This document shows positions 3,304 to 52,560 of a DNA stretch of 64,000 bases, piece after piece. The notes beneath the pieces were generated by a model. That model searched no databases, was not told the DNA's origin, and was given only the letters and a program-made list of their open reading frames with translations. This DNA is from Pegea sp. RAD2-039. Lineage: Eukaryota; Chordata; Thaliacea; Salpida; Salpidae. Position 1 is the first letter of the stretch; every line of letters begins with the position of its first letter. A program made the translations under genes and the position numbers. Location: assembly GCA_034620365.1 (NCBI GenBank), contig JAQGEQ010000084.1, positions 1,860,001 to 1,924,000 on the forward strand, in the 5' to 3' direction.

Positions 3304-3890
3304 AAACTTACAACTAATCGCTTTTTGAGGAAATATCATCGAATTTAAATATTAATGTTTTAAAATCTCATGAAAGTTCAACATTTTCTTATAAATTGTT
3401 GCAAAAATTTTGGTTACAAAAATCATTTTATTAGTTTATTCTGAGTTTTGCATATTTTTAGAACTGAAAGAGTTGTTACATCTTTAAATCAAATTTTTAA
3501 ATTAAATGAACTCAAATTTGATAGAAGAATTTTTATTCTCTTCTTAACATATAATTTTTAATTAAATGACTATAAGCTTTCACCTTTGTACCTCAAAATT
3601 AATATTTAACAAGTTTTTTTTATGTTAGCTTTATTTTTTAAATAGTTTTTGAGATTTTTGTTTGTGTATCTGATTAATGAGTGATTAATGGGGGAACTGA
3701 CTTTATAATAATAAAAGTTCTCTTTTAATGTTTGAATTGTTTTTCTTGCAAGTTTTCATGAATAGAAATCATGATATTATTAGTAAACATTTTCAAATAT
3801 TTATTTTGTTTGTTTTTATAAATAGCTTTAAAGAATTTCAAACTTTTTTATTGATGAATAATTTGATAAATAATATTTTGAGTTGATATA
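3304..3890. other. Intergenic spacer SETD9-HACL1
   Basis: This 587-bp AT-rich spacer must hold the SETD9 3' UTR and the HACL1 promoter or 5' UTR. A run of pyrimidines ending in AG near 3823 is a possible 5' UTR acceptor. I see no conserved motif or gene. Confidence 0.35.
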
Positions 3891-5627
3891 ATGGAAGAAA
3901 CAGAAAACCTCAGTGGTGCTCAAGTTATAGCACAAAGTTTGAAAAATCAGGGTATAGAATATGTTTTTGGAGTTGTTGGTTTTCCAGTCATTGAAATTGG
4001 TTTAGCAGTACAAGAAGCTGGTATCAAATATATTGGAATGAGAAATGAACAGTCAGCTTCATATGCTGCTGGAGCTATTGGTTATTTGACAGGCAAACCA
4101 GGTGTTTGTCTCGTTGTAAGTGGTCCTGGTCTAATACATGCCTTTGGTGGAATGGCTAATGCTAATCAAAACTGCTGGCCTATGGTAGTGATTGGAGGGT
4201 CTTCTGATGAAGATCAGCAAACTCTAGGAGCATTTCAAGAGTTTCCACAAGTTGAATCATCTCGACTTTATAGTAAATTTTCAAGTAGACCAACAAGTAC
4301 AATTTTGATTCCACAGATTGTTGAAAAAGCTGTTCGGCTTTCAATGTATGGTCGACCAGGTAGCACTTATGTCGATATTCCTGGAAATTTTGTTGGTGAA
4401 ATGGTTTCCAGTAACCTACTTCGGTTTCCAAGCTTATGTCCACCAATACCTAAAATACTAGTTGAACCACATCTTATAGAAAAAGCATCTAAATATCTGT
4501 CCCAGTCCAAACGACCTTTAGTTATTATAGGCAAGGGTTGTGCATATGCAAATGCTTCAAAACTTGTTCGTGAGTTTGTCGAACATCATCAGATACCATT
4601 TTTACCAACTCCAATGGGCAAGGGAGTGGTTAGTGACAGTCATCCTCTGTGTGTAGCTGCAGCTCGTTCTGTAGCACTTCGTAGATCTGATTGCATCCTG
4701 TTATTAGGAGCCAGACTTAACTGGCAACTACATTTCGGCAGACCGCCAAGGTTTGCAAATGATGTTCGTATCATTCAAGTTGATATTTGTGCTGAAGAAT
4801 TACACAACAGTGTAACATCAGTTGTTGGTCTTCAAGGTGATATCGGTCAAGTATTAAAGCAGTTTAGCGCGTCGCCTAGCAACCAAAAATGGAAGTTTCC
4901 GCGCGAAAACAGCTGGTGGAAAGAACTGTGGGAAAAGATGAGTAATAATTTCAATCAGATTGCAGCTATGGCATCCGATAAAAGTATACCACTCAATTAT
5001 TATGCTGTGTTTGAAGTGATTCAGCGAATGATTCCTGAAGACTCAATTGTCATCAGTGAAGGTTCGAAAACCATGGACATCAGCAGATCGACTATTTTAA
5101 ACCATTTACCAAAACATCGTTTAGATGCTGGTACTTTCGGTACCATGGGGGTTGGTATTGGATTTGCAATTGCTGCTGCTTTGTATTCAGCAGATCAAGC
5201 TAAAGCTTCAGGCACCAAAGCTAAGAAAGTGATTTGTATACAAGGAGATAGTGCGTTTGGATTTTCAGGAATGGAGCTGGAAACAGTTTGTCGCTACAAA
5301 CTTCCAATCGTGTTTATTGTTGTCAATAATAACGGAATTTCTCAAGGAGGTTTTCAAGAGTATTTCGAAGATTTAGAAACAACTGAAGATGTTGCTTTAC
5401 GTTCTATGCCAACTTTTCTTTTACCAAATTCACATTATGAGAAAATTATTGAAGCATTTGGAGGTGACGGATATTTTTGTGAGACAGTGGGCGAAATTGA
5501 GAACTCACTTACAAAAAGTTTGTTGGGTGCTGAAGACGCTCGTTCAAGTCTCATAAACATTATGATTGATCCTAACTCAGACCGAAAACAGCAGGAATTT
5601 ATGTGGCTCACAAGGAGTAATCTTTAG
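3891..5627 (+). CDS. HACL1: 2-hydroxyacyl-CoA lyase 1 (peroxisomal, ThDP-dependent)
   Basis: Single exon, 578 aa, the same length as human HACL1. The enzyme cleaves 2-hydroxy-fatty acyl-CoAs to formyl-CoA and a shortened aldehyde in peroxisomal alpha-oxidation, with thiamine diphosphate and magnesium. Visible features: an N-terminal PYR domain with the cofactor-contacting Glu in MRNEQSAS (E53); a central domain from about residue 190; and a C-terminal PP domain with the ThDP motif, GDSAFGFSG (from G452) through to NNNG (about 478-481). The last three residues are SNL, which fits a variant type 1 peroxisomal targeting signal like the SNM of human HACL1. Bacterial oxalyl-CoA decarboxylase is the closest alternative, but the length and the PTS1 favour HACL1. 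The gene has no intron, although neighbouring genes are heavily split. An AATAAA lies at 6105-6110. Confidence 0.95.
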
Positions 5628-19190: not shown

Positions 19191-22100
19191 ATGGCCATGT
19201 CATCGCCTGATCCAAACTGGACTTTCAAACCAGAACCCAGTATTTTAGATGAATTTGAAAACATGAATCCATTAAATGATAGCTCTTGTTTATGGAGTTT
19301 AAATTTTAAAGTATGTTTCAATAATATTTGGATTCTATTTTGATTTTTCTATTTGATTCTGTTATTGTGCTAAAGCTTAAGTATTTACTTGTAAATATTT
19401 TATTTAAATTATAGGATATGGAAGATATTGATGACTTTGGTGGTCTTCATAACAACATTATTGAAGCAGTAGAAGATGATATATGGTTGAACCAAATTCA
19501 ACCAAAAGACTTAGCTTTCAATGCATCAGATTTACCAGTCATTATAATTTTGCTTTTTATTTAACTTTGTTTTAGCAATAAACTAAATGTTTTATTTTCT
19601 TTTTTCTTCATCTATAAACTAATTGTTGTCTAATTGTTTTGGATCTTTGGGAAACAATAAAAAACTTTGAAAATTTTTATTTTATACAAACTTTGAAATT
19701 TGATCAAATCAATTTTTGTGTTTTCTTTTTAGGATTGGGATGATATTTATAAAGATAATGAAGCAGCATCTTCACCTGAAGACTTCATTCCTCTAAAATT
19801 AGAAAATATTGAAGGTATGGACTTCCAATTTACACCAGCAGATGAATTTGCATTTGATGATGAAAACTACCATCAACTACTTTCTCTGGATCAGATTCTT
19901 CCAAAAGAAAATTCTGAATCAGAGGTAGAGTGTTTAGATATTAGTTTATTAACAAGCTTTATGAAAAATTCATTAAACGATGAAGCCGTTAATTATTAAT
20001 TTGTAAATTTTAAGTGTAAATTAATTGTCAAAACTTATTAGAATATTTATTTTGTCTGATATATTGAAACTAGTGCTATAAACATGAGAGCCCTCTGTTA
20101 TTTCGCCAAATAAGTTTACAAAAATTGAATATAATAGTTAAAGATTTAAATTAATTGATATGATTTTCTCAGCTCAAAAAATATCTGTTGTCTCCTAAGA
20201 AGCCGGTTCAAAAAGACTTGAAAAGTTCTAAACCAAAAGTCAGTGAACAAATAGTTGTTAGAAAACAACAATCTAAGTTGATGTGATTGTAGAAACGAAA
20301 GCAGAATATGAAAAAGAACATCACTATCAGTAAATTGAAAAGTGGTCCTCAGAAGCTAGTGAAGAAGGTCGAAACAGAAACGTATACGGATAAGTCTCCA
20401 TCCAACGAATTGTTGAAGCAGTTAGCAACCAAGCCCACTGTTTGTGTTAATGGTTGGTACTTTCATGATTTTCCAATTAAATAGTTTTATATTTAAGTTT
20501 ATCATCACTGATTTCAAAAACTTATTTTTACAGATAAAGTTATCAAGAATGAAAGAAGTGTGTTAAATACTAGTAAATTGGTCCAACCATTAAAAAGGTA
20601 TATGTCTCGCCCCCTTCCACCAACCAAAGTTTTCATTTCTCTGATACATTTTGATTTATATATTTTCTTTTCTAACTATTCAATTAATTATTTGACTTTT
20701 TAAGCCATTAAATCAAGAACGAAGTAGTCTACCAACATATAATTTTTCATTTATTTATAGAAAATCTGTGATATCTGAAGCTACTCGAGATGCAAAGCTT
20801 GCTGAGTTTGGTAAGTCGCATTGTGATAAAATCATAACCACCAAAATTCGAGTAAAAAACATCTCAAGCTTTTTGTTATATCATCTTGATCTTCTTAACT
20901 TTCTTATAAGTCTGAATAAACTACAACTTTTATAAGAAACTTAAAATGCTTTGTTGTAGTCACTTGTGGAAGTATTTATGTCATTTTAAGCATAAGTTGT
21001 TTAATGTTGCTCACTACTTGCTGTTTCATCAAAGTTTTTTTTACAGCAAAAAAGAAGCAACCAATCCGAAGAGCAGCTAAACTAATTGATCCTCTTCCAA
21101 ATAAGCCGGTTGTCAAACAGAAAGTTAAACCAAATACTGAAGCTGCTTCTACTACCAAAGTCGCATTACCAGTAGTAGTTGGTCCAAACAAACTCGAAGA
21201 CCACGATTATTGTGTGGTGTTTCAATCAAACGATGAAAATGCTTCGTCGTTTCCGGATGACAAAGACCTACCTGCTGGTCTCATCCGAGTTAAAAGATTA
21301 CCTAATATCAAAAGTGCACCAACAACTCCCAGTAACTCCCCAAAAGCTCAACGTGGTTGTAAGCGAGTTACTAATTATATGATAACGAAAGATGGAAAAA
21401 TAGGATTAAAGTCACCCTTGGTTGGAGGCATTCTTGAAAAACCTAAAATTTATGAGTCACCGATTGAGGCGGCGAAGAATAAACGTAAAACTAAGATGGA
21501 TGTGAACCTGAAAAGTTTCGAGAAGTATCTGAAAAATATTAACACTGGTGTTACAAGTGACAAGACCTCGACATCAGGACATACCAGGGCCCCACAAAAT
21601 GGTTTTTGCCAGTTAAATGTGGGCGGCATGCTGCATACTGTTGCTGTGAATTCAGACTTCAATCAAATGAAAAATACTCCGGGAAACTTCAGTTCTCAAT
21701 CTTTACCCTCTTCACCAATGCTCAAAGAGACATTTGAAGATTTAGAATCTTCATCTGATCAATTAAGAGATCCCAGAGTCCCAAAAAGTATCAAAGCCGT
21801 GGATTTAGCTCGAGTAAAATATGAAGCAAAGAAACCTCGAGCACGCGGAAGATCTAGTAGTAGAGGCTCTTTTCCCCTCGTCAAAGTCATCCCATCCTCT
21901 AATGGAGTCCCTGATCAAAGCCGATCACTAACTGTTGCCATGAGAGGTGCTGAAGACGACCAAAAACGAATATTCAGTTTGCAGAAGAATGTAAGATTAC
22001 CCACCCGACTACGATGATCAAATTATCGATTTTATTTTCCAGGTTAAAGATGAAGTGGCGCGAAAGAAACTGATCGATAATGTTTGTGACACAGTGACTG

Positions 22101-25100
22101 TAATCAAAAGTGATTGTGGGTCTTTCAAAACTCTTCCAACAAAAGTCTTCCCAATCAGCAAGCCAAAGAACAAAATTGCTCCCCAACTAACTCTCCTTCA
22201 CGAAATTAATCGAGATATAGAGAAGGAATCTCGCGTTAAAGTCGTACCAAGAAGTATCTTAAATAATAAAAATGTGAAGATTCATAAGATTCAGGGAGTG
22301 CAGGGAGTTCACCGTCTCTCCAACAAGCTGAACTCTTCGTTTTCTTTCGTAAATGCTGCTTCATTAGGAAAGAAAATTTCGACAGTTATTCCAGTCCTAC
22401 CCATGAAAGAAGTACAAGACAAAAGCAAGTACAAACCCATCAACCCAATTCTCAATCCCACTCTTCCTAAGATGACCACAGTTCGAATTGTTTCAAAGGA
22501 CTCCAGAAATTTTATTTCGAGATTACCTTACCAATATAAGAATCAGCGCAAAGTTCGAATCATCGATGGTTCCAGTATCACTGATAAAATCCATTCTAAT
22601 ATGGTGGTGATCCCAAAAAGCGAATTTAAATCTGAGAAGTCGCCCGATTCCGCTGTGGGAACAGATCATTCTGATGCGTCTTCTAGTCCAGCAAGTATTT
22701 CAGATGAAATAGTCAACAAAGCATGGACCCCGAAGCAGTTACTGAATGGAAATCAGTTACTGGCAAAGCAACTGGTGAGTTATTTGGTTTCAAATATGGA
22801 AGTTTTTGGTTCTAATTAGTTTCTTTTTCAAAGAATTCACCACCTCTAGGCGATATGCTCAAACATTTTGGCCATAATGGAGATGAAGATGGTTTTTATT
22901 TTTTGTTTTATTTTATTTAAAAATGTTTTTTCGTTATTTTTAATATGTTATTTTTCTAAAAAATTTTTGTTATTTTTGCCATAAATATTTAGTTAAATTG
23001 TAAAAAAGAATAATTTTATGTGATTGCAGAAGAATTAGACTTCGAACCAGACGATTACTTTACTGTTTCACAATTGTTATCAAATACTTTACAGTAAGTG
23101 ACAATTTGATTTCTAAAAACTCCTTGTTTTGTGATTTTAAATGAAACCAAATAAGTTGTCTTGAACAGTTGACAATCTAACAACCTTACTAACAAACATA
23201 TTTTACAACAGAGATGTAAAATCCGACAATACAAATTCATCTATAAGCTCCCAAGAAAAGGAAGAAGACTGTGAGACTGCTTCTGCTGTTGCATCAATTC
23301 AAGAAGATGCAATTGCTGTTGAAGTATCAGCAGATTGTAATAGGTACATTCAGATTATTATCAATTTAGTCTAACCGCTCAGGTAGTTTCATCTCGTTGT
23401 TGCCAATCTCAGAGAAATAGTTTTGTTTTATTTATTTTCTCTTCAGAAATCAATATTTGAAAGATTGAGTTTGCTGAATGAGTAGATCAAATAGCTTAGC
23501 AAACATTAGTCATTAAAAAAAAAGATTTTTAGAGTAAATTATTTACAGAAAACCACGCTACATAGTTTTAATTTTTTTGCTCTGATTATTTACAAAGTAA
23601 TTATTGAAATTGTTGTCAGAGAAACTGACAACTTCTGCACTTTGTAAATCTTCTTCGTTTGTTAGTCGGTTTTACTGAGTTAACAAAATCCTGTTTGTAA
23701 TCTATCTGAAGACGAATCTTTGGTGGCTGACTAATTATCTTCAAACATAGTCAGCATCTTTACTTGTTTAATTGTCAACAACTTTGCTTCTGGTTTTGTT
23801 CAACATTTTATTGATGGAATATGAAACTAGAAAGCTTCAAGTCAGTTTTAGTGTCGCGTTGTGATGGATAAGCTGACCCACAGCTGCTGGTAGTTGATAA
23901 AATCAACAAATAAACAACATGATAAAAATAATTAAAATCAACCAACTTATTTGGACATTTAAAACATCAAAATAAAAGCGGGAAGAGATGAAAAGTAAAT
24001 GATAAAAGTTTGTAGGGTTTTGTTGGAATGTTGCGTGTAATCAGTTACACAATTGAGTAAGAGGAAGGAAAGAGAAGGGGGTGAGAGAGAGGTGTATTGA
24101 GTTTACGAAGTAACTCGCGAGTTTTCAACCAACCAATCACACTCCGCTCAAATCTATTTTTATTTCAGAGTTTCAAGCCTACCAAATTTCCCGGTTTTAT
24201 TCGGACCACAAGATGTTGAAGAAATTCAAAAAACTATTCATCAACAATATGAATCGAAGATTGAAGAAACCATCCTTGCTCTTAAGAAGACGGAACAAAG
24301 CAAGTATCATCTAGAGAATAAAGTGGCTGAGTTGACGAAAGAGCTAGCTCAACGGAAGAGGTTGGAAGCGAGGAGATCTTCACAAATGCGCGATAGACAC
24401 AGATCTACCTACTCACGTACCACTGACGACTACTCTTCAGATGAGAGCAGGTTTGTGGTTCTCTATTGATGAGTAGACATCAGATGCTCAACAATTCTCT
24501 CAATTGTAGATTTGCAACTTCGCCACCTCGACCACGCCGTCCTAGTCCCTCGTACCACCCCTACAACCCGGAATCTACAGTGAGGTGAGACTTACAAACG
24601 AACATGTTTAAGGTTTGGTGCGCGTATGGAGCTACTGTTACTGTTGCTAGTAGCTGTCTTGCTTTTAACGTTACTCTTCCTTAAGTTTTCAAGATCAGTT
24701 CATGATGAAGTGATATTTGGAATTATTGAGTTGCTAAAACTCTGCCTGTGACGAATTACTGATTCGGAGGCATTTATGTGATTAAGCAGGGTGTGTATGC
24801 CATCAAAATACGTTAGAGTTCGATTTGATTTTGATGGTACTCACCCTGCTGAAATAACCACAAAATTGTTTGACTTTTTGCTACTGAAAACGCTTTTTTG
24901 AAAAAAGCACGAAGATTAAATCGAACATTTGACAGTAGAAGGAAGGATTATGAAAAAGCATCGTCTTTCCCTGCATCAAGTCCTCATCAGCGAAGTCTGT
25001 CGTCCGAAAGATCAACCAATAGGTGAGTGATCTACAAATGTTTAGATTTAGTTTCATCGTATAAAATTACAAAGTTTCTATAAATTGAAATCTGATTTGA

Positions 25101-25946
25101 GATGCGATAGAGCGCGATTTCGTTCAATCTTTCTCTCTATGGTTAACTAAACGCCGCCGCCGCCGTTGCCATCCACTTAATAAACTCGCTTTACAACTTT
25201 TCATACATGAGCGCGCGCGCATACACACACGCGTCATCAACTTTCATTTGAATTTTACAGAAATCGAAACAAAAGACATTTAGAGGACAATGACCAGCTC
25301 TACCAGAGTAAGCGCAGAAAGGAGTCGTATGAAAAGAAGAGAGAGGTAAGTGGTGATGCCAGAAAAGAGTTATTAATTAGCTGATTCGATCGATAGATGG
25401 AAGCTGTCGACGAACGACGTGTCGTGTTTGTCGGTGGCTTTGACGACTCCGTAGGCGAGGGTTACCTGATGAAACGTTTCACTAAATTCGGTGCCATCGA
25501 AAATTTAAAGGTTTTCCGTCGAGCAAAAGAGTAAGTAGCTGTGGGTCGATCGATTCGTGCCTCAATCGAGTCAGAAGTGATTCGGTTCAAATTTTATCGA
25601 TTCATCAAATCTACTTTACAAAATGAAAATCGGAAATATTTGGTTTGCAGTGATGGCCGCGAACCTTACGCTTTCATCTACTTCATTCGAAAAGCGGATG
25701 CCAACAAGGCAATCGAAGAAGGCAACATCGGAGAGAGTCATCAGCTCCAACTCTCCTTCGGTGGAAGACGAAAGTTCTGCAGGCAACGTTATCGAGATCT
25801 AGGTCCGTATCTCCCCAACTCTCCTGCCCCCTCCTTAAACTTCTTTCTTTACAGATGATTGTGTTGATAGTGATAGCGATAAATCTGAAGAAGATGATCT
25901 CGCCACTTTGTTAAGTCGGCATCGAGAACTTCAAGAAAATTGTTAA
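19191..25946 (+). CDS. PGC-1 family transcriptional coactivator (PPARGC1-like, 19 coding exons)
   Basis: Nuclear coactivator family that drives mitochondrial biogenesis and energy metabolism. Exons: 19191-19310, 19415-19537, 19733-19924, 20173-20238, 20293-20452, 20534-20597, 20761-20810, 21047-21990, 22043-22774, 22834-22891, 23030-23093, 23212-23343, 24169-24450, 24510-24584, 24915-25022, 25261-25345, 25397-25530, 25651-25802, 25855-25946. These total 3633 nt, giving 1210 aa. Visible: an acidic N-terminal activation region; LKKYLLSP at about 146 and ELLKQL at about 206, matching leucine motifs of PGC-1alpha; DHDY at 310-313, the HCF-1-binding motif of the family; an Arg/Ser-rich stretch at about 900-1085; a C-terminal RRM with VVFVGGF (RNP2) and YAFIYFI (RNP1); then FGGRRKFCRQRYRDL, the family-specific strand after the RRM, and an acidic tail. 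The acceptor used before exon 15 (ACGAAG) is weak. A single homologue cannot be assigned to alpha, beta or PRC. Confidence 0.88.
24777..24862 (+). ncRNA. MicroRNA-like hairpin in an intron of the PGC-1-like gene
   Basis: A long imperfect inverted repeat lies in the intron 24585-24914. The 5' arm has AGCAGGGTG (24785-24793) and CCATCAAAAT (24800-24809). The 3' arm has ATTTTGATGG (24828-24837) and CACCCTGCT (24842-24850). Between the paired blocks, GTA pairs with TAC, leaving one T:T mismatch and a 2-nt bulge. The loop is 18 nt (24810-24827). A lower stem continues with TGTG against CACA and TTA against TAA, around a mismatch and a 4-nt bulge. Arm length near 22 nt, small internal defects and a lower stem resemble animal microRNA precursors. 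I do not recognise a known mature sequence. A short palindromic transposon relic is the alternative. Confidence 0.42.
25023..25260. repeat. Simple-sequence tracts in a PGC-1-like intron
   Basis: This intron contains a short (CCG)n run near 25148-25165 and an alternating GC/CA purine-pyrimidine tract near 25209-25235. Both are unusual in such AT-rich DNA and are low-complexity. No function is implied. Confidence 0.6.
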
Positions 25947-49984: not shown

Positions 49985-52560
49985 TCTGAAAGCTACAAAA
50001 ACCTTTCTACAAGGGCTACAATCGCTACGATGGATACAAAGATGTTTCTGGGACCCTTTTTATGAACAAGAGTAATGATAGCTTTCTTCTAAATTTGTGG
50101 AACTCTTCCTCGCCTCAGAGTGATGTTAAACAGTAGCGATAAAGAGGAAGTAGTTTTTTTTTAAAAGCTGGGATCTAATCTGGGATGTTGGAAACTGATG
50201 GTTTTAAAGAAGAAATAGGCTTAGCTACCATATCGACCGTATTGTCAAGATCTATCATCTCTGAGATATTTGTAATAATGTTGGAGTAGGAAAGAGAAGA
50301 AGTATTGCCATCATCGGTTATAAAAACACTATTAAATTGATTGTTTAGCAATTCAGCTTTATTTTCTGGTTCCATCACAAGCTGGTTGCTGTTATCAAGC
50401 AATGGAAGTAATTTAGATCTCGCCTTAAGCTTGTGATTTATGAAGCCAAAAAACGTTTTCTTGCTAGGTGAAAATAAGATTGCGCTTTCTTGATGGAAGT
50501 GTATACCTTAGTTTGTTTGTATAGGAGGTTTTTTAAATGTTATAAATTCCTTAAATATTTGAGTAAATGTGTTTTTTGTTGACTTTATAATAAGGCATGA
50601 GCTTCTCAATTGAATCTTTAACGATGCTAGTAAACCTTGAGTAAATAGTACTGATGTCTTCGATAGAGTTAAAAACAGAAATCCAGTCAACACCTGATAG
50701 AAACTTATTAATACCGTTATAATTTCCACGATAAAAATTCCTTTTGCTTGAAGTTTTAACGTTAATTGAAAAATTTGATGGAGCTTAAAATCAATCATGT
50801 TGTGATCGTATGTTAATGCAAAAGGTTCTTTCTGATCAACGTAGATAATGTTCTCAGGTTTTGATGTGATAATAAGATCCAAAGTATTACCACTAACTTG
50901 GGTTGTAAAAGTAACCATCTGAGATAGATTATTGGCATCGAGGAAGTTTACAAAGGTATGACTTAGTATGGCTGGATTAGGATTGTCACCATCCAAGTTA
51001 AACGATTTTCCCGTAAATGCTGAATTCGGGTTATTCCAATCAATTTTACTAAAATTAAAATCCCCCAAAATATATAACTCAGGACACACAATACTCTTCA
51101 GAACCTTCAATAAAGCCTTAATAGTAACCTCATCATTAATTTTAGAGGGTGCTAGGTAGGTACATATAAAACGAGAAAATTTGGACTTTGAGTAATAACA
51201 CCACCGCCTCTACCATACAGTCTGTCACAATACAAAGCACAAAAACGATTACCCTCAACCAGAAAAGAATCAGGATATAACGGCTTCAAACAGGTTTCAG
51301 TAATAAAAACAAATGTGAAATCTTGAGTATGCAAAAGAGCTTTTAATTGGAAAATTTTTGTTAATAATCGACCGCGCGTTGAAGAACATACCTAGTGTAA
51401 TCGAAGAATTGTATTTTCGACGTTCGTAAGATTTGATGATAGGCTTCTGTGGATTGATATATTGGGCTGGAAATATGGTATTCACAATTGCGGAGAGAAT
51501 GTGAAAAAAGAAGATGTGAGTCCAGTGGTTATTTGCCACTTCCGTTTTTTTTACAACCTTGATAATTGTCAAGGCCCATGGTGGATCTCGAACCTTGTAT
51601 TTGAAATCAGTTGGTTGTTCCTTCTGATTTCGGTTATACTCCTCTTTTACAAGACGCTTATTTTCTAAGCGATCATCTTCACACATATCATGCGCTACTC
51701 TAATGCACTCGAATTTTTTGTCAAGTTTTAGCTTATACAGCTTGGCAAGAAACTTGTGTTTGTCCCAACTTTCCTGAAAGAACACTTTCAACGGTCTTTG
51801 ATGATATGAGCTTTTTGCTCCAAGTCTGGTCATTGATACCTTTGGAACGTTCACAAAATCAAGGCTTTGAGAGAACATTTAATTAAAAAACTTACTGTCA
51901 TCATCTTTATCAGTCTCACAGCCACTAAAGATGATGACATTGTTTTCTCTATCTTCACGGTCCAAAGTAAGTTTTTGTGCGTGGCGGTGACCTTCTTGGC
52001 AAGAAGCTGCACCATGCTAGCATTTTTCTCGGAATCGGAATCACCGACCACCGAGGCCCATGTGACAAGTTTCTTTGTAGAGGCATCCAGTTCATCCATT
52101 GATTTAGAGAAACTAGAAATTTTTTAGACAGAATTTGTTCAGACTGAAGCTTAGAAATTTTCTCGTTGATTTTGGCAACATCGTTCCCAATTTTAGATTT
52201 AAAGTCGGCCAATTCAGCAGATACAGATTTGCTGATGTCGAATTGTAGGTTTGAATTAGAATTAGAGGTGGTAGATGTTAAGTCAATGGTTCTACTTTTA
52301 ATTCAGAACCATTCAAACTCCATTTGCTTCATCTGTTTGTTATCAAATATATCATAAATTTTCTTGCTCACATCACTACAGGTGAGATGAAACCAACAGA
52401 GGTATTGAATACATTTTATTGCCGGATCTTCACCAGAGCAAATTTTATTGCAGGATTGAAAATTGCCATTGCAAGCTTGTTTTGATGAAGTCGGCTTGTC
52501 AGAATTTTTATGTATACTGGAACGTAATTCTTGCCCATTTTGTTTGGTTACGGAAAAGAC
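49985..52560 (-). mobile_element. Broken CR1-type LINE: ORF1 with PHD-like finger, endonuclease, start of reverse transcriptase
   Basis: On the minus strand, in order: a PHD-like zinc-finger segment (frame 52512-52303, with Cys pairs and CWFHLTC); a coiled-coil and nucleic-acid-binding ORF1 remainder (about 52212-51500, with REDRENNVIIFSG and IRVAHDMCEDDR); an AP-type endonuclease (about 51400-50500, with MFFNARSI, FITET, RLYGRGGG, ILGDFN and a degraded DHN site); a linker (50402-50175, ELLNNQFNSVF); and the first part of a reverse transcriptase (VHKKGPRN near 50040). A PHD-like finger in ORF1 is typical of CR1/L2-clade elements. Many frameshifts and stops break it up. The copy lacks nearly all of the reverse transcriptase and the 3' end, which is unusual because LINE copies normally lose the 5' end. 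Confidence 0.82.

Follow-up and report, generated by a model that had tools for sequence, protein, structure and literature searches.

A single-copy hairpin with microRNA-like geometry in an intron of a PGC-1-like gene of the salp Pegea sp. RAD2-039

Does a PGC-1-like gene of the salp Pegea sp. RAD2-039 carry an intronic microRNA? The question is raised by an inverted repeat on the + strand of the 64-kb stretch of DNA analyzed here (hereafter, the window), and it has a known parallel, because the microRNA miR-378a sits in intron 1 of PPARGC1B (PGC-1beta) (PMC4709675). The initial annotation of the window, made from its letters alone, described the repeat as having the geometry of an animal microRNA precursor, placed it in the intron 24585-24914 of a PGC-1 family gene, and recognized neither arm as a known microRNA.

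The hairpin consists of a lower stem, a core of 9 + 3 + 10 bp, and an 18-nt loop (Table 1). The lowest block of the core (9 bp) pairs 24785-24793 with 24842-24850 and is followed by the only mismatch of the core, T24794 versus T24841. The middle block (3 bp) pairs 24795-24797 with 24838-24840, and beyond an unpaired 2-nt bulge (24798-24799) the upper block (10 bp) pairs 24800-24809 with 24828-24837. The lower stem, formed by 24777-24784 and 24855-24862, is weak, with a mismatch at 24781/24858 and a 4-nt bulge at 24851-24854. All three blocks, the mismatch, the 2-nt bulge, the loop, and the lower stem had been described before, and each of them was confirmed, as were the coordinates of the hairpin. 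In the best single fold of the + strand, a G24799-U24838 pair replaces A24797-U24838, a few weak pairs (0.25-0.47) form within the loop, and the upper block loses its last two pairs; the 18-nt loop is retained in the centroid fold, in agreement with the first description. In the lowest block (9 bp) and in the 8 bp with which the upper block starts, pair probabilities are 0.98-1.0; they fall to 0.65-0.85 in the middle block and to 0.49-0.9 in the lower stem. As proposed, the arms are less AT-rich than their surroundings, although only slightly (GC content of 0.44 over 48 nt, versus 0.376 for the whole intron and 0.383/0.308 for the flanks), and the argument for constraint that had been drawn from this composition is unsupported.

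Table 1. Coordinates of the hairpin and of its putative host gene within the window
Feature	Position	Strand	Basis
Hairpin	24777..24862	+	Complementary blocks; fold z -5.65 (+), -7.20 (-)
Core stem, 5' arm (would-be 5p ~24787-24809)	24785..24809	+	Pair probabilities, duplex enumeration
Core stem, 3' arm (would-be 3p ~24830-24850)	24828..24850	+	Pair probabilities, duplex enumeration
Terminal loop, 18 nt	24810..24827	+	Centroid fold
Host intron (3' end 24914 or 24935)	24585..24935	+	Both acceptors leave the frame open across seven joined exons
3' exons of the PGC-1-like host, with RRM	24169..25945	+	Frame-joined exons, PF00076 match
RRM exons	25397-25530 and 25651-25802	+	Joined protein versus PF00076
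DHDYC motif, upstream exon	21199..21213	+	ORF translation; putatively the same gene

The host is likely to be a gene of the PGC-1 family. The protein obtained by joining the seven exons matches PF00076 (RRM_1, E 6.1e-9), and by eye it contains a coiled-coil-like segment and an R/S-rich region. The DHDYC motif in an upstream exon is one that we take to be PGC-1-like, and the stretch that follows the RRM is presumably typical of PGC-1 proteins. When compared with solved structures, the joined RRM protein matches 57 distinct sequences, none of which (0/57) is listed as PGC-1, so these matches neither support nor refute the label of the host. Thus, within the earlier assignment to the PGC-1 family, the RRM is supported, and the PGC-1 label itself is plausible, not proven. 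The limits of the intron were revised in part. Its 3' end may be 24914 or 24935, and the acceptor at 24935 (CAG) is the better of the two; whichever acceptor is used, the hairpin is intronic and in sense orientation, with 192 nt separating it from the donor and 52 or 73 nt from the acceptor at 24914 or 24935, respectively. A mirtron is a hairpin whose ends coincide with the splice sites, and at these distances the candidate is not a mirtron. The same intron also contains a short, strongly hydrophobic ORF at 24626-24751 (+), starting MELLLLLLVAVLLLTLLFLKF, which is possibly there by chance.

Folding of the hairpin interval, which had been suggested as a check, showed that it is far more stable than its dinucleotide shuffles. 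The 86 nt fold with -33.5 kcal/mol on the + strand and -34.3 kcal/mol on the - strand (z-scores from 200 shuffles are listed in Table 1), and a repeat with 1000 shuffles gave z -5.9 for the + strand. With 20 nt added on each side (126 nt), the z-scores are -4.12 (+) and -5.10 (-). In all four folds, i.e. 86 and 126 nt on both strands, 0/200 shuffles were as stable, and for the 86 nt this was true of 0/1000 on either strand. Most of the structure of the intron resides in this hairpin, with z -4.40 for the whole intron, -1.32 for the part upstream, and +0.17 for the part downstream.

Such a local structure might serve the pre-mRNA itself, by bringing the splice sites closer together, by directing the choice between the acceptors at 24914 and 24935, or as a Drosha or ADAR substrate that would lower host mRNA. 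It lies a short way upstream of two in-frame candidate acceptors, and stem-loops in mRNAs can be cleaved by Drosha (PMC10954719). On the other hand, of the three other host introns that were folded, two show no structural excess (z -0.04 for 25023-25260 and +0.31 for 20812-21048), and the third, 25531-25650 (+), has z -2.83, with 3/300 shuffles as stable. We consider a pre-mRNA role quite improbable.

How much the stability of the hairpin means depends on the background against which it is set. Within the window, a hairpin scan ranks 24777-24862 as the most stable unbranched hairpin on each strand, and its inverted-repeat score of 51 (Watson-Crick pairs, span <120) is the best. Nevertheless, 2/200 shuffled 64-kb windows contain an inverted repeat scoring at least 51, and 2/8 shuffled windows contain a hairpin below the scan energy of the candidate, -37.0 kcal/mol. 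The hairpin thus stands out from chance locally, and only moderately so for a search of 64 kb. The background in the genome was sampled in 18 ten-kb stretches, chosen regardless of their content, of which two (L011 and L026) contain an inverted repeat stronger than the candidate. Scaling up from two per 180 kb suggests that the genome carries, very roughly, a thousand inverted repeats of this strength, a loose estimate from a small count. The window and the 18 stretches together (244 kb, both strands) yielded 291 hairpins at -20 kcal/mol or below, 209 of them outside the window. In this set the + strand of the candidate ranks fourth by energy, after both strands of a palindrome in L011 and a tandem repeat in L021, and 12th by z-score, while its - strand ranks third by z-score, with only that palindrome, on both strands, placed higher. 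Ten of the 209 hairpins outside the window, at nine loci, have a better z-score than the + strand of the candidate. Because the stronger control repeats are unclassified and that of L011 is transposon-like, the fair background may be lower than these counts.

The two control repeats have features of their own. The one at 7792-7909 of L011 is a near-perfect, AT-rich inverted repeat of 118 bp that looks like a small MITE-type element or transposon. The one at 1814-1933 of L026 has an inverted-repeat score of 64, higher than that of the candidate, and its hairpin has z -6.78.

MITE-like palindromes resemble the candidate in being inverted repeats with a short loop, and the initial annotation had named dispersed copies as the sign by which such an element would be known. 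The candidate has none that we could find. In the 105.7-Mb assembly, with the counts of repeats being minimum values, a single place was obtained both for the 86 bp and for the 350-bp intron region, and a gapped pattern of the arms matches just the two arms of the candidate. A MITE should be present in multiple dispersed copies, and on these counts the candidate does not behave as one. In addition, the 22-nt segment 24829-24850 of the 3' arm has no second genomic match within three mismatches, i.e. neither a copy nor a near-perfect target.

As a lineage-specific microRNA precursor co-expressed with its host, the hairpin would be cut by Drosha ∼11 bp up from its base (24777/24862) to give a pre-miRNA of ∼60-64 nt. 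Dicer would then remove the loop, and one of the two arms (Table 1) would enter Argonaute and repress seed-matched mRNAs. The sense orientation within an intron and the single place in the assembly both suit such a precursor. The structural rules in Table 1 of PMC12594335 call for strands of 20-26 nt that leave 2-nt 3' overhangs, no more than 7 mismatched nt, and an asymmetric bulge of at most 3 nt; for expression, a minimum of 10 reads on miRNA/miRNA* and a precision of 75% or better are required. As determined with our own script, the candidate agrees with the structural rules in two registers, and its best duplex (24787-24809/24830-24850) has strands of 23 and 21 nt, 2-nt 3' overhangs, 3 mismatched nt, and an asymmetry of 2. 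The distance from the lower-stem base to the start of this duplex is 10 nt, about one helical turn and near the ∼11 bp from the basal junction at which Drosha is described as cutting (PMC10954719). However, the same structural rules are passed by 244/291 hairpins in the 244 kb (84%), including 177/209 outside the window, and therefore do not discriminate. Precursor geometry, as claimed, is thus present, but it is unspecific.

The sequence motifs that assist Drosha are found in part. UG occurs at 24777 and 24779, 8-10 nt ahead of the best duplex, not at the 14 nt expected of a basal UG, and CNNC occurs at 24846, 24858, and 24881, with none at the expected ∼17 nt past the duplex. No apical UGU/GUG is present in 24809-24830. 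This shortfall weighs little against a precursor, because such motifs are described as redundant, with only a subset of them present in most natural precursors (PMC10954719).

The genome contains a miR-124 locus (L029, ∼1501-1518), whose intact 18-nt mature core lies within a hairpin. RNase III exons are also present, on C4 and on C103, which by their motifs look Drosha-like and Dicer-like, respectively. With such exons and a miR-124 locus, a microRNA is therefore possible in this species. The miR-124 hairpin, in a hand-chosen interval of 92 nt, has a conserved mature sequence and a weaker fold than the candidate, with -26.8 kcal/mol, z -2.7, and 15/1000 shuffles as good, so the strength of a fold does not decide. 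The core of let-7 has no match in the genome within one mismatch of its 19 nt. The Rfam model of bantam gave no match either, a result that is uninformative because 57/126411 candidates were scored and the controls matched nowhere. A search of the genome for a five-unit TTAGG telomere repeat found none. No known seed family was found for the candidate, and five spellings of its arm segments were not found in the literature searched. On balance, we regard a microRNA precursor as unlikely.

Known RNA families were sought with Rfam 15. At the gathering score there is no match in the 64-kb window and none at the miR-124 locus of the same genome, so a miss at the cut-off is weak evidence here. In a permissive search, the best sense-strand matches of the candidate are SNORA63 (23.6 bits, E 0.042) and SNORA69 (21.2 bits, E 0.086), whose gathering scores are 90 and 47, respectively. 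The best antisense match is mir-1993 (RF03886), at 24849-24786 (-), with 23.4 bits and E 0.0086 in a search of 175 bases, versus a gathering score of 82. In searches of 340 bases, the best E of the candidate was 0.081 versus 3.7 and 1.6 for two control hairpins. The better score of the candidate is unexplained, and it is weak evidence, since structure was the reason for selecting this stretch.

The mir-1993 model fits the antisense strand in length and stem, as it would if the candidate were a diverged member of this family. The model was nevertheless absent from the matches with E up to 10 in the search of 340 bases, and the transcript would be antisense to the host gene. Moreover, the seeds agree at only five of seven positions (AUUAUGC versus AUUUUGA, with the mature start as assumed), and microRNA seeds rarely change. 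An intact mir-1993 was also sought elsewhere in the genome. Its pattern occurs at nine places at three mismatches and none closer, versus four for a reversed-pattern control, and none of the six places that were folded looked by eye like a mir-1993 precursor. That the candidate is a diverged mir-1993 is extremely improbable.

H/ACA snoRNAs have two hairpins, with an H box (ANANNA) between them and an ACA near the 3' end. The candidate might be an intronic RNA of this class, or half of one, because like SNORA63 and SNORA69 it combines a GCAGG/CCUGC lower stem with an ANANNA-like box after it; AAATAA at 24852-24857 fits the box and lies 14 nt beneath the upper stem. With the longer intron, ending at 24935, an ACA is also placed by the SNORA69 alignment at 24925-24927, 3 nt from the end. 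Other features argue against this class. Most pairs of the second stem of SNORA69 are unformed in the alignment, and 24858-24935 are no more stable than shuffles (z -0.99), so that no second hairpin is formed. There is no ACA between 24863 and 24914, which leaves one only in the longer intron, and the pocket is mostly paired. With scores far below the cut-offs in addition, an H/ACA snoRNA is very improbable. As for the earlier remark that neither arm was recognized as a known microRNA, no Rfam family matches at the cut-off, and the weaker matches were set aside on seed or anatomy.

Taken together, these findings show that the hairpin is real, that it occurs at one place in the assembly, and that it lies in sense orientation within an intron. 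It is probably a lone, single-copy inverted repeat without a dedicated product. We favor this reading because comparable hairpins occur both in the sampled stretches and in shuffled windows, because ten hairpins outside the window outrank its sense strand by z-score and most of the 209 there pass the same rules, because the window holds no Rfam match at the cut-off and the arm spellings are absent from the searched literature, and because the remainder of the intron shows little or no structure beyond that of shuffles. The inverted repeat would be transcribed along with the PGC-1-like gene, in the pre-mRNA it would form a hairpin whose core measures ∼22 bp, and it would be removed and degraded together with the intron. 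Its origin is most likely chance mutation or a decayed small inverted duplication, and it may at most be raw material for a young lineage-specific microRNA. Against a repeat without a product, we count the local fold far beyond that of dinucleotide shuffles, the high rank of the antisense strand, and the look of a processed precursor given by one mismatch, a small bulge, and pairing over 22-nt arms. Considering that equally good hairpins are found elsewhere in the genome and in shuffled sequence, calling a new microRNA is not yet justified.

What the candidate shares with the microRNA hairpin of miR-378a is its intronic placement within a gene of the PGC-1 family (PMC4709675). The introns differ, miR-378a being in the first intron of PPARGC1B and the intron of the candidate lying two exons upstream of those that encode the RRM. 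Compared by eye, the mature strands given for miR-378a (PMC4709675) share neither an arm nor a seed with the candidate, which would at best be an independent case. That a young microRNA arose here in parallel to that of PGC-1beta, so that the family acquired one twice, is in our judgment decidedly unlikely. If reads were to confirm it, this would be a second, seemingly unrelated microRNA within a PGC-1-family gene, and it would test whether the placement of microRNAs in these genes is selected. As it stands, the locus is a calibrated warning that a textbook-looking hairpin weighs little when so large a share of sampled hairpins passes the same rules.

Elsewhere in the window, an uninterrupted ORF of 581 aa at 3882-5627 (+) resembles 2-hydroxyacyl-CoA lyase/oxalyl-CoA decarboxylase. 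An ORF at 50508-51209 (-) matches an endonuclease/reverse-transcriptase domain (PF14529, E 1.1e-11), as in non-LTR retrotransposons.
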